A DNA stretch of 64,000 nucleotides. It comes from Candidatus Gastranaerophilales bacterium. Lineage in GTDB: Bacteria; Cyanobacteriota; Vampirovibrionia; Gastranaerophilales; Gastranaerophilaceae. Shown piece after piece: positions 4,108-31,767 of the stretch. Below the pieces are notes generated by a model that had not been told where the DNA came from, did no database searches, and saw nothing but the letters and a program-made list of their open reading frames with translations. Location: the NCBI GenBank assembly GCA_944325625.1, contig CALVAP010000007.1, positions 62,001 through 126,000 on the forward strand. The letters are read 5' to 3'. The first letter of the stretch is position 1. Each line of letters begins with the position of its first letter. A program made the translations under genes and the position numbers.

Positions 4108-5188
<1,081 letters not shown>

Positions 5189-5210
5189 TTCCAAGAACGT
5201 AAGAAATAGC

Positions 5211-5241
5211 AAAAAGGCGGTTTTAAAAAGCCGCCTTTTTT
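5211..5241 (+). terminator. Rho-independent terminator after gap
   Basis: AAAAAGGCGG (5211-5220) pairs perfectly with CCGCCTTTTT (5231-5240) across a 10-base loop, followed by further T. It ends the gap transcript and can also act for the pilin-like gene converging from the right. Confidence 0.9.
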
Positions 5242-5265
5242 ATTTTATATAAATATCAATCGAAT

Positions 5266-6057
5266 TTACTCTTTCCTGCAAGCAAGCCAAACAACAGAGT
5301 TTGGTCTGTTTTCATCCCCCACAAGAGGCATATCCGAGAGAAAAGGTAGATTATTTATTTTTACAGTATTTCCATAACCATTGACAAAACTGAATGCAGT
5401 ATTGTTTTCCTTACAGGTTCCAGCTTCATCACGATTCGGGCAGGTTAATGCCCTAACCGTATCACCCCCAAGCACTGATAAACTTTCCCATCTATTCAAA
5501 CCATCACTTGTATAAGCGTACCAGTTGTTTCCATCATCGACATATGACCCACCTCTCAATAACTGGGACGTATCAGCAGACAAACTATAGTTTAACTTAC
5601 CATTATAATCAGTTGAAATCACAGGGTAATTTCTATCACCCAGAACAGAATTCGCATAAGAATTTTTGTTTCTGAATGGTCCATATCGAAAATAATTCAC
5701 AGTCGCTAATGCATTTATTGCCTGTAGCTCCGGTACAACATGTTTATGTTTATGTACCATTTGTTCTTTTTTTTGACCTATCTCCGAATCGCCTTCTTGC
5801 GCAAGTCGCGGGTAATATCCGCTTAAGCCACTGCTTGAAGTCACAACAGCCTTCCAACCATCAGGACATGTTTTTCTATCGTCAAAAAACATAATTGCGC
5901 CCTTGGGAACAGCATCTTGTTCTGCATGTATATTTTGAATCATTGAACGCTTCATCTGACCTGATATCAAAGGAGCAGCCGCAGCTAAAGCTATACTGAA
6001 TATCAAAAGCGTCATCATTGCTTCTGCTATCGAAAACGCTCGTTTATTCGCATACAA
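5266..6057 (-). CDS. type IV pilin-like (prepilin) protein, probable phase-variable N-terminus
   Basis: The 263-residue frame has a prepilin N-terminal helix, AFSIAEAMMTLLIFSIALAA, with Glu at position 5 of the helix as in type IV pilins and T2SS pseudopilins, then a soluble domain with PKGAIMFFDDRKTCPDGWK and four further cysteines. No convincing start lies near the helix: the TTG at 6057 has only a poorly spaced AGGA. The frame stays open upstream to 6150 through a run of 11 G (coding strand, 6142-6132). A GTG at 6166 with GGAGGG 6 bases before it reads into this tract, but with 11 G it is one base out of frame. With 10 or 13 G it would add about 36 residues in frame. The function as a surface or pseudopilin subunit is inferred from the helix. 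Confidence 0.72.
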   Translation of the reverse strand: MYANKRAFSIAEAMMTLLIFSIALAAAAPLISGQMKRSMIQNIHAEQDAVPKGAIMFFDDRKTCPDGWKAVVTSSSGLSGYYPRLAQEGDSEIGQKKEQMVHKHKHVVPELQAINALATVNYFRYGPFRNKNSYANSVLGDRNYPVISTDYNGKLNYSLSADTSQLLRGGSYVDDGNNWYAYTSDGLNRWESLSVLGGDTVRALTCPNRDEAGTCKENNTAFSFVNGYGNTVKINNLPFLSDMPLVGDENRPNSVVWLACRKE

Positions 6058-6131
6058 TCCTGTAGGAAAAAGATTAAATCTTAATTTTTCGCCAAAACAT
6101 AAATTTTTAAACTTTAGGCTTTTAGTATTTG

Positions 6132-6142
6132 CCCCCCCCCCC
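6132..6142 (-). repeat. homopolymer G11 tract (coding strand)
   Basis: Eleven uninterrupted C on the plus strand, 11 G in the transcript of the pilin-like gene. It is the only long G/C homopolymer in this AT-rich window. It lies 75 bases before the annotated TTG and 22 bases after the GTG start at 6166, inside the translated leader if that GTG is used. Confidence 0.95.
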
Positions 6143-6205
6143 TGTAAAGCTCAATAATGAACGCACTTTTCACCCTCCATTCTAATCCTCATTTTCTATT
6201 TTTAT

Positions 6206-6234
6206 ATATTACCATTTTACATAGCTTTTGACAA
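6206..6234 (-). promoter_or_regulatory. sigma-70 promoter of the pilin-like gene
   Basis: On the minus strand TTGTCA (6234-6229), exactly 17 bases, TATAAT-like TAATAT (6211-6206). The start would be near 6199, so the mRNA includes the GGAGGG (6178-6173), the GTG at 6166 and the G11 tract. The tract is therefore transcribed and not part of the promoter. Confidence 0.72.
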
Positions 6235-6281
6235 GGTACAGGGATTTATTATAAAAATTTAACATTACTCAATAATTTCTT

Positions 6282-6310
6282 TTGTAAAAATAATATGTTT
6301 ATGTTACATT
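6282..6310 (+). promoter_or_regulatory. probable promoter of rpsF-ssb-rpsR
   Basis: TTGTAA (6282-6287), 17 bases, TACATT (6305-6310). It gives a leader of about 45 bases with AAAGGA before the TTG start of rpsF. Confidence 0.5.
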
Positions 6311-6360
6311 CTTAACATAAGAATACTAATTAAATCCTAGGCTAGAAAGGAAATAAAAAA

Positions 6361-6657
6361 TTGAAAACTTACGAACTATTAGCAATAATCAAACCTACAA
6401 TGGATCAAGAAGAAGTAGACAAGGTTATTGAAAAAATCGAAGAAACAGTTAAAAGCTACAACGGATCTGTTGAATCAACAGACAAAATGGGAAGAAAAAG
6501 ACTGGCGTTTGAAGTAGAAAGCTTCAGAGACGGATTTTTTGTTTCACAAAAAATGCAACTACCTGCAGACAAAGTAGCAGACTTTAAGAGAATGCTTAAA
6601 CTAAACGAAAATATTATAAGAACAATGTTTGTTGAAGCTTCTAAAGTAAGCGCATAG
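6361..6657 (+). CDS. rpsF: 30S ribosomal protein S6
   Basis: A 98-residue S6, a primary component of the 30S platform that binds 16S rRNA together with S18. The family start MKTYELLAIIKPTM and the central KMGRKRLAFEVE are clear. The start codon is TTG, chosen because AAAGGAA lies about 8 bases upstream and the next Met is far inside the fold. It is the first gene of the conserved rpsF-ssb-rpsR operon; rplI, which often follows, is absent here. Confidence 0.96.
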   Translation: MKTYELLAIIKPTMDQEEVDKVIEKIEETVKSYNGSVESTDKMGRKRLAFEVESFRDGFFVSQKMQLPADKVADFKRMLKLNENIIRTMFVEASKVSA

Positions 6658-6676
6658 TTAATTAAGGAAAAAATAA

Positions 6677-7093
6677 ATGACTTTAGCCAGAGCAACTATC
6701 TCAGGAACGGTATACAGAGCACCGGAAAAAAGGTTCACATCGAATAATGTACCTATAACCGGATTTACAATAAATATTAACCCTGATGATGAAACTTTAA
6801 TAAGGGTTATAGCTAAAGGGAATCTTGCCGATGCAATGGTAAATACTATCAACAAAGGTGATAACATTGTAGTTGAGGGCAGGTTACAAAACAATACCGT
6901 AAAAACCGAAGATGGAAGCGAAAAAAGGATTGTTGAAATTGACGCTTCTTCGTTTGAAAAATTATCAGGAAGTTCAACATCAACAACAAAATCCTCGACC
7001 TCCGCGGATTTTGGAGAAACAGAGCAAATAGTCAAATTCGGAGCGGATGAATTCACCGAAAGCCTCATAGGCGAAGATGAAATACCGTTCTAA
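6677..7093 (+). CDS. ssb: single-stranded DNA-binding protein
   Basis: A 138-residue SSB. It has an OB-fold domain of about 100 residues (ATISGTVYRAPEKRF at the start, DNIVVEGRLQNN in the middle), a Ser/Thr-rich linker, and the acidic tip ending GEDEIPF, which in the family recruits repair and replication partners. It coats single-stranded DNA during replication and recombination. It sits between rpsF (19 bases) and rpsR (34 bases) as in most bacteria. Confidence 0.95.
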   Translation: MTLARATISGTVYRAPEKRFTSNNVPITGFTININPDDETLIRVIAKGNLADAMVNTINKGDNIVVEGRLQNNTVKTEDGSEKRIVEIDASSFEKLSGSSTSTTKSSTSADFGETEQIVKFGADEFTESLIGEDEIPF

Positions 7094-7127
7094 ACTTACA
7101 AAGCACATAATTTAAGGAAATAAAGAA

Positions 7128-7358
7128 ATGTCAAGAGAAGCAAAAGACGCAAAAAAACGTAAAAATTGTAACTTCTGTGCTGACCATGTAGAAGTTATAG
7201 ATTACAAGGATGCACAAAAAATCAGAAGATACTTAACAGAAGCCGGCAAAATTCTTCCAAGAAGAATAACGGGAACTTGTGCTAAGCACCAAAGAATGCT
7301 TGCATCTGCAGTAAAAAAATCTAGAGAAGCAGGTTTGATTAGTTACGTTTTTGACTAA
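7128..7358 (+). CDS. rpsR: 30S ribosomal protein S18
   Basis: A 76-residue S18, partner of S6 on the 30S platform. The family core [20 protein letters not shown] and [13 protein letters not shown] is intact. The N-terminal CNFC plus the later Cys-x-x-His give a zinc-ribbon-like set of ligands, as in the zinc-binding form of S18. AAGGAAA precedes the ATG. It is the last gene of the operon, ending 23 bases before a terminator. Confidence 0.96.
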
Positions 7359-29718: not shown

Positions 29719-31767
29719 ATGGCACAAAGCATCGTCAATAAAATTGAGAATATGATAAACAAAGTCTACGCTGCAAAGTTCAGCGTAGATGTTGTTAATC
29801 AACTTATGTTTATACCAATTGACGAACAAAAAGGTGTTTTTTATGCGGCGATAAACGAGAAATCTGCTAGAAGTGAAATAGAATCTAGAATTTCAACTGC
29901 AACTAATCTTAAAGCAAAATTTGTGATGTTAAAAAGTGATGAATATAAAGAACTGCATGATTTTTACTTAAAAGAAATTGCAGAAAAACCGACACAAACA
30001 ATCAGTAATCCTACTACACCCCAAACCCAAACCGGAACAAAACCCAGAAAAAGATTAGGGGACTTGTTGAAAGATGCCGGATTGATTAATGATCAACAAC
30101 TCGTTGAGGCTCTCGTTTACAGTCGCTCAAACAGTGTTCCTATAGGCTCAGCATTGGTTGAAAAGGGTTATATTACAGTAGATATCCTTAAAGAATTTCT
30201 TCACGAGCAACAAGATACAGAAACAGTCGATTCAAATGAACTTCATATTCAACCCAATATCTTAAAGCTCCTACCTGTAGATTTTATTAAAACAAATAAG
30301 GTCATTCCACTATCTTCGGACGGAAAAAATATCATAATTGGTATGGTAAATCCAAATGACAAGAAAGTTTTAAATGAAATTGTGTACATAACAGGTGGAC
30401 TTAAACCGCAAGCAAAACTATTAACCCACTATGAATTTAAAACATTCATAGATCAGCACTATGGTGAAAGTTACAAAGAAACATCAGAGATTATAAAAAA
30501 TATCGAACAAGAAGTTCTTGAATATGACTTGGAAGAAGATCTTTCCTCACAAGTAGAGAGAGAACTTCAAGATAAGACCGGAAACGTAGCAAAATTCGTA
30601 AACAAAATTATTACAAATGCAATTGATAAAAAAGCTAGCGATATTCACATAGAACCACGTTTAGACGGATATATAGTTCGCTACAGAATAGACGGGATAT
30701 TAAGACAAGTTCTTAGCCTGCCTGCAAAGGTAGAATCAGCAGTTATAACAAGGTTTAAAGTGCTATCCAAAATGGACATAGCAGAATACAGACGCCCACA
30801 AGACGGTACATTCTTTATCAAGTATAACAATATATCCTATGACTTTCGTATCAATACACTCCCCGTAGGTACCCGCGAGAAAATGGTAATCCGTGTTCTA
30901 GCCCCTGCACAAACTCTAAGCGCAAGCGATAGAGAAATAAAACTTCAAGGTGCAACCGAAACCGAACATGAAATTATAAAGAAAATGACTTCGTCTCCAA
31001 ACGGAATAATCCTCGCTTCTGGTCCAACGGGTTCAGGTAAAACAACCACTCTATACTCTGTACTAAAAAGCGTAAATGACCCGAGCGTTAACATTACAAC
31101 AATTGAAGACCCGGTAGAAATAAAAATTGACGGGATAAATCAATCCCAAGTAAATCCAAAAGCAGGAATAACATTTGCAAGCTGCATGCGTGCAATATTA
31201 CGTCAAGACCCCGACATTATACTTGTTGGTGAAATACGTGACTTAGAAACCCTTGAAGTTGCTATATCAGCTGCATTGACAGGTCACCTCGTTCTAAGCA
31301 CAATTCACACAAACTCTGCAGCTACCACAGTCACTCGATTAATTGAAATGGGAGCAAAAGATTACCTTGTATCTTCTACTTTAACGGGCATTATTGCCCA
31401 AAGGCTTGTAAGAAGATTATGCCCTCATTGTAAAGAAGCTTATCATCCTTCAAAAGAGGAAACAGAAAAAGTCATTTTAAATCCTGATGATTATGAAGCC
31501 TTTATGAAAAGAGAAATATATCGTCCCAAAGGATGTACTGAATGCAACTTTGAAGGATATAAAGGTCGTATGGGGGTATATGAAATTCTGCCAATAACAA
31601 AAGAAATTCGAAGACTAATAGCTCAAGGCGCCCATGATATTGAAATTGAAGAAGTCGCAATTGGTGCAGGAATGAGAACACTGCAACAAAGTTGTATGGA
31701 ACACATCTTAAGAGGTGAGACTACTATCAGTGAATTTGTCAGGGTTCTTGGTATGGCTAACGAATAA
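29719..31767 (+). CDS. pilB: type IV pilus assembly/type II secretion ATPase (PilB/GspE)
   Basis: A 682-residue hexameric assembly ATPase. The N-terminal MshEN/GspE-N domain (LGDLLKDAGLINDQQLVEAL, GSALVEKGYITVDILKEFL) may bind cyclic di-GMP in relatives. The catalytic core has ASDIHIEPR, Walker A GPTGSGKTTT (about 435-444), the Asp box TIEDPVE, Walker B DPDIILVGEIRD, the His box TGHLVLSTIHTN, and the tetracysteine zinc site CPHC/CTEC. It powers pilin extraction. It follows the secretin by 21 bases. Confidence 0.96.
   Translation: MAQSIVNKIENMINKVYAAKFSVDVVNQLMFIPIDEQKGVFYAAINEKSARSEIESRISTATNLKAKFVMLKSDEYKELHDFYLKEIAEKPTQTISNPTTPQTQTGTKPRKRLGDLLKDAGLINDQQLVEALVYSRSNSVPIGSALVEKGYITVDILKEFLHEQQDTETVDSNELHIQPNILKLLPVDFIKTNKVIPLSSDGKNIIIGMVNPNDKKVLNEIVYITGGLKPQAKLLTHYEFKTFIDQHYGESYKETSEIIKNIEQEVLEYDLEEDLSSQVERELQDKTGNVAKFVNKIITNAIDKKASDIHIEPRLDGYIVRYRIDGILRQVLSLPAKVESAVITRFKVLSKMDIAEYRRPQDGTFFIKYNNISYDFRINTLPVGTREKMVIRVLAPAQTLSASDREIKLQGATETEHEIIKKMTSSPNGIILASGPTGSGKTTTLYSVLKSVNDPSVNITTIEDPVEIKIDGINQSQVNPKAGITFASCMRAILRQDPDIILVGEIRDLETLEVAISAALTGHLVLSTIHTNSAATTVTRLIEMGAKDYLVSSTLTGIIAQRLVRRLCPHCKEAYHPSKEETEKVILNPDDYEAFMKREIYRPKGCTECNFEGYKGRMGVYEILPITKEIRRLIAQGAHDIEIEEVAIGAGMRTLQQSCMEHILRGETTISEFVRVLGMANE

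Follow-up and report, generated by a model that had tools for sequence, protein, structure and literature searches.

A guanine tract in the leader of a prepilin-like gene points to probable phase variation by strand slippage across many pilin genes of gut Melainabacteria

The window, that is, the whole stretch of 64,000 nucleotides that was analyzed, carries on its minus strand a gene whose body (5266-6036) encodes a prepilin-like protein, with the helix FSIAEAMMTL... followed by a variable C-terminal domain (MFFDDRKTCPDGW...). The gene stands alone, with a convergent GAPDH gene behind it and a divergent ribosomal protein S6 gene before it; a hairpin scan placed a terminator-like hairpin of 13 pairs, with no strand assigned, between the GAPDH and pilin genes (5211-5240). 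An Rfam scan of 5000-7200 returned 12 weak matches, all below the gathering score, all over this terminator and none at the tract described below, and an RNA element at the locus was rejected on these grounds. When the ORF was scanned alone N_methyl gave 17.9 bits (E 0.0022), below the curated cut-off, and in the genome search the window protein reached 21.6 bits, over the cut-off of 21.2. A model of the structure built from the single sequence had a mean pLDDT of 35.6, only the N-terminal helix (residues 4-26) being usable, and a PDB search with the single window protein gave one chance-level match only (E 0.46).

Both the N-terminal motif expected of a type IV prepilin and the hydrophobic helix are present in the protein; it shares with this class a FTLAE/FSIAE-type start and a Glu at +5 in the helix, and its genome encodes a prepilin peptidase as well as secretion/pilus ATPases. 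It differs from the class in a leader of ~40 residues that contains a homopolymer, and the C-terminal domains of two sister genes differ further in resembling phage tail fibres. One secretion or pilus ATPase is encoded within the window at 30571-31743 (G000:C7:92571-93743, where G000 is the window's own genome; PF00437, 429.9 bits).

Upstream of the body, on the same strand, lies the homopolymer, a run of 11 G (G11, 6132-6142). It is preceded by a Shine-Dalgarno sequence, GGAGGG (6173-6178), which stands 6 nt ahead of a GTG start (6166-6164), and by a leader of eight codons, MRSLLSFT (6143-6166), so that 24 nt separate the beginning of the GTG from the tract. With 11 G the GTG frame reads MRSLLSFT-GGGG-KY and is terminated by a TAA (6124-6122). 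In the helix frame there is no interruption between the tract and the stop at 5266, the second half of the long leader (6037-6131) included, and the first in-frame start, also the only one between tract and helix, is a TTG (6055-6057) with an AGGA directly abutting it and no normally spaced Shine-Dalgarno. The GTG and helix frames are not joined at 11 G and become joined with one G fewer or two G more; the tract is a repeat of slippable length, located between start and body, that changes the frame. The window holds a single G11, none of 100 dinucleotide shuffles produced one, and no other G or C run of at least 8 is present within the 64 kb.

Most of what the initial annotation had claimed for this region was borne out: the G11 lies one base out of frame with a well-formed GGAGGG/GTG start at 6166, and 10 or 13 G would read on into the prepilin helix. 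The early stop at 11 G is also there, after four glycines and not the three given as GGGKY; likewise, the TTG at 6057 does lack a proper ribosome site, although what had been called an annotated start is merely the mechanical start of an ORF. The promoter was located as described, TTGTCA (6234-6229) and TAATAT (6211-6206) with a 17 nt spacer on the minus strand (6206-6234), and matches the consensus at 9 of 12 positions; however, it can be called consensus-like only, since four such sites were found in the region against 4.9 expected by shuffling, no better than chance.

The tract is one of many in its genome. G000 (1,700,121 bases in 17 contigs, rated 99.68% complete) contains 16 G or C runs of at least 8, against ~3 expected by arithmetic from the 35.4% G+C of the window. 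Fourteen of them have a start with a Shine-Dalgarno before and an open frame into a prepilin helix after, a genome-wide recurrence at prepilin leaders that supports the initial proposal of a phase-variation switch in a pilin-like gene; the two without a prepilin are a C10 (L066, G000:C4:178891) and a C9 (L076, G000:C16:36642). The coding strand carries C in most of these tracts and G in two, those of the window gene and of L065, and C12 or C13 is found in five paralogs whose flanks are much alike (L061, L064, L072, L073 and L074). With matches accepted to an E of 0.1, the prepilin N-terminal family counts 46 loci in G000, of which 35 exceed the cut-off; upstream of these 46 we found the 14 tracts, one C6 remnant (L199, which has no in-frame start) and, for most of the others, an ordinary short leader and start. 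When registers were assigned relative to the start with the best Shine-Dalgarno, a choice on which the ON or OFF call depends, all 14 tract-bearing genes were OFF, eight in one shift class and six in the other, and in every one of them 230-287 codons are open after the tract. IMG/VR scans gave no matches for the leader of the window gene or for the common leader of the paralogs.

Several observations bear on which start is the real one. Between tract and helix, 10 of the 14 genes have no start codon at all, and the remaining four, the window gene included, have only TTG codons without Shine-Dalgarno. In two paralogs, L189 and L195, the AGGAGG-ATG leader is the same but other sequence stands in the place of the tract, and the frame runs unbroken into FTLAE; because these two, together with three genes of a sister species described below, read straight through, the upstream start is taken as the real one. 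Moreover, single-base codon differences in the leader before the tract are 109 synonymous to 49 non-synonymous in the ATG frame, versus 17/136 and 40/106 in the shifted frames (eight of nine distinct leaders were used, one of other length being dropped), a strong codon constraint that marks this part of the leader as coding. Over the last 45 nt ahead of the helix no clear constraint on the helix frame can be seen (52/114, compared with 73/118 in a shifted frame).

The absence of any ON gene among the 14, where three neutral frames would give one third, together with L199, in which a mere C6 is left and no in-frame start, is what could be expected of a decaying family whose OFF alleles are pseudogenes and whose tracts are mutation hot spots. 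We hold this to be very improbable, because decay should bring stops and indels elsewhere and not a single indel always within the tract, whereas the frames after the tract are open in all 14 genes and the leaders retain their codon constraint.

Genes of the sister species G002 with the FSIAE helix follow the same design as the window gene, with 21 nt from start to tract. The frame is continuous from ATG into the helix in L084 and L092, which carry G10, and in L016, whose tract is interrupted; it is not so in L009 (G10) and L110 (G11), and in L030 (G12) a stop immediately precedes the helix. In L022, L028 and L029 the upstream part is cut by contig ends. The continuous frame from a real start that the initial annotation had suggested seeking in relatives is thus present in L084, L092 and L016 of G002 and in the tract-less L189 and L195 of G000, and the arrangement it had named as contrary evidence, a non-G sequence with a start immediately before the helix, was found only in other prepilin subfamilies of G000. 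ON, OFF and tract-less alleles occur among paralogs and relatives.

Behind the conserved helix the C-terminal domains of the FSIAE relatives vary freely. Four proteins were scanned for phage tail-fibre families, with matches for L022 (best 8.3e-12) and L028 (3.7e-7) and none for L009 or the window protein; a profile of eight FSIAE-group proteins matched a short tail fibre chain (1.1e-8). At L022:70-660 and L028:802-1623 a prepilin helix is fused to a phage tail-fibre-like C-terminus. Since the PHROGs scan of the single window protein gave no match, the tail-fibre tip is a feature of these two sister genes and not of the window gene.

With this anatomy, its recurrence and the mixture of registers in view, phase variation of many pilin genes by strand slippage, comparable to that of the Neisseria Opa genes, with most genes OFF in the assemblies, is in our view a highly probable explanation. 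The window gene would encode a prepilin-like protein of the type IV class whose leader is unusually long and is translated from GTG 6166, and slipped-strand mispairing during replication would add G to, or remove G from, the G11 within that leader. At a fitting length (10, 13 and so on) a ribosome starting at the GTG would cross the tract and read on into the helix, so that the protein is made, the ON state, while at the assembled 11 G it would stop six codons after entering the tract, the OFF state. The 14 genes of G000 would share this switch, with most of them OFF at any time, and as the window gene is one of the 14, cells of one population should differ in the pilins that they make. Mutation of the tracts would then proceed in real time, the proteins made would probably be assembled into pili, and the advantage might lie in changed adhesion or in escape from phages or immunity.

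We also considered whether the tracts follow from a loss of mismatch repair. MutL was found over the cut-off in 26 of 29 genomes; G000 has MutS and no MutL above the cut-off, as do G004 and G006 (75% complete). The missing MutL could raise tract instability in G000, but the presence of MutS means that a full loss of repair is not established there, and as a general cause this candidate was rejected, since the tract-rich genomes G001, G003 and G008 have MutL. A programmed frameshift in a single direction was likewise rejected as the general mechanism, given that both OFF classes are found in nearly identical leaders.

The comparison was extended to assemblies, with one genome per species. Tracts of at least 10 are present in 93 of 117 genomes of the family, with up to 124 per genome, versus at most 3 in each of 22 genomes from other families of the order Candidatus Gastranaerophilales. 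In seven genomes 176 tracts were classified (G023 being sampled in part, with 20 tracts taken of 88 that are at least 10, and G100 by 20 regions with 22 tracts of at least 9, its whole genome having 25 of at least 10): 103 were of the fused type, 12 had a separate prepilin frame, and in 61 no prepilin was seen, 23 of the latter in G001 and 22 in G100. Registers of the fused type were ON in 20, OFF in 81 and unassigned in two, an ON share with a binomial value of 0.002 against one third, in a set in which paralogs are not independent. As the window protein itself, looked up in named genomes, found no relative there, loci in those genomes were chosen instead via alignment of the paralogs; the helix was located in 79 of 80 such loci, picked by protein alone, and 32 of the 79 have a tract at most 300 nt upstream (28 OFF, three ON, one unassigned), with the frame broken between tract and helix in four of the 32. 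Such an excess of OFF registers would suit a cell that displays few of its pilins at once; alternatively, it could come from a cost of expression or from majority calls in the assembly.

These registers also bear on the possibility of slippage during expression, by RNA polymerase or by the ribosome as it passes the homopolymer, which would yield a fixed small share of product from any register. Room for it is left in G008, where one OFF class takes 28 of the 34 assigned genes, and in G003, where another takes 20 of 27, and the 81 OFF among 101 assigned genes exceed the neutral two thirds. Nevertheless, a uniform register can also arise from a common tract length and a common leader, G000 mixes both OFF classes (8 + 6) in nearly identical leaders, and ON as well as tract-less continuous alleles exist, for which we rate slippage at expression as unlikely. 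That the lengths are errors of sequencing or assembly is scarcely credible: many tracts of the relatives do lie near contig ends and metagenome-assembly lengths are majority calls, but across genomes that come from separate studies the tracts occupy a single functional position, with an OFF bias, and random mistakes would not select prepilin leaders.

Switching by DNA slippage has precedents. The surface-protein paralogs of the Neisseria Opa family each have a CTCTT repeat in the leader-peptide region and are switched by slipped-strand frameshift (PMC3960869). The genes described here likewise form a family of many paralogs, in which each tract-bearing member (14 among the 46 prepilin loci of G000) has its own leader repeat and would be switched by frameshift; they differ in having a run of a single base, G or C, a prepilin-like product and an uncultured gut Melainabacteria host. 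Opa is a beta-barrel outer-membrane protein and the window gene encodes a protein of prepilin type, so the likeness lies in the switching and the gene is not an Opa. A poly-G is also found in the pilus-linked genes PilC1 and PilC2 of Neisseria, where it lies in the region coding for the signal peptide; PilC, however, is not a prepilin and has two copies, compared with a dozen or more here. In Campylobacter and Helicobacter, poly-G/C contingency genes have single-base tracts that change the frame, as do the tracts studied here, and those of G100 are similarly found in other genes; in G000, by contrast, a single prepilin superfamily accounts for nearly all of the tracts. For Helicobacter we refer to a paper on H. 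canadensis (PMC2823697). The 22 G/C tracts of G100 (L337-L356) are all at genes other than prepilins, several of whose frames look by eye like enzymes of glycan biosynthesis.

The available part of a paper on termite-gut Melainabacteria names type IV pilus genes and does not mention tracts (PMC5877343), and in the portions of the open-licence literature searched we found no report of tract-switched pilins in Gastranaerophilales or Melainabacteria. A true start that is out of frame in the assembly tends to make automatic gene calling report such genes as short or broken, and comparisons of pilus gene content in the group may consequently be wrong. Few host-facing functions are known for Ca. Gastranaerophilales, which are gut bacteria; a switchable pilin repertoire, if real, would allow adhesion, escape from phages or contact with the immune system to be approached directly, and could be tested in existing metagenome reads.

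A second design was found in G001, of the same genus as G000, where 29 tract leaders were read by pattern. In nearly all of them the C tract lies in a separate small ORF, a build seen at L129, L118, L117 and other loci; the C14 tract of L115 and L136 represent the fused build. All 19 G001 loci with the pilin start in the sequence keep a terminator-like hairpin, CAAGCC-9 nt-GGCTTG, between tract and pilin (in eight of the 19 the sequence end cuts the pilin frame before the helix). The leader ORF runs through the hairpin in six of the 19, its stop overlapping the pilin start by 8-11 nt (ON), and ends 8-16 nt past the tract in the other 13 (OFF). Codon constraint is absent from this ORF, with 124 synonymous against 540 non-synonymous differences, so that only the passage of the ribosome, and not the peptide, could matter; judged from the arrangement, the build would be one of phase-variable attenuation or translational coupling.

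As a tentative extension, rather doubtful at present, this family of uncultured gut Melainabacteria may carry tens of pilin genes per genome that are OFF by default and whose products have variable tips, some of them tail-fibre-like; rare switching at the single-base tracts in the long leaders would bring up one or a few per cell, the same end being reached in G001 through its second design. Finally, the listed G tracts of G008:C11 are on the plus strand to ~758 kb and switch to the minus strand past ~823 kb, as though they followed the direction of replication.
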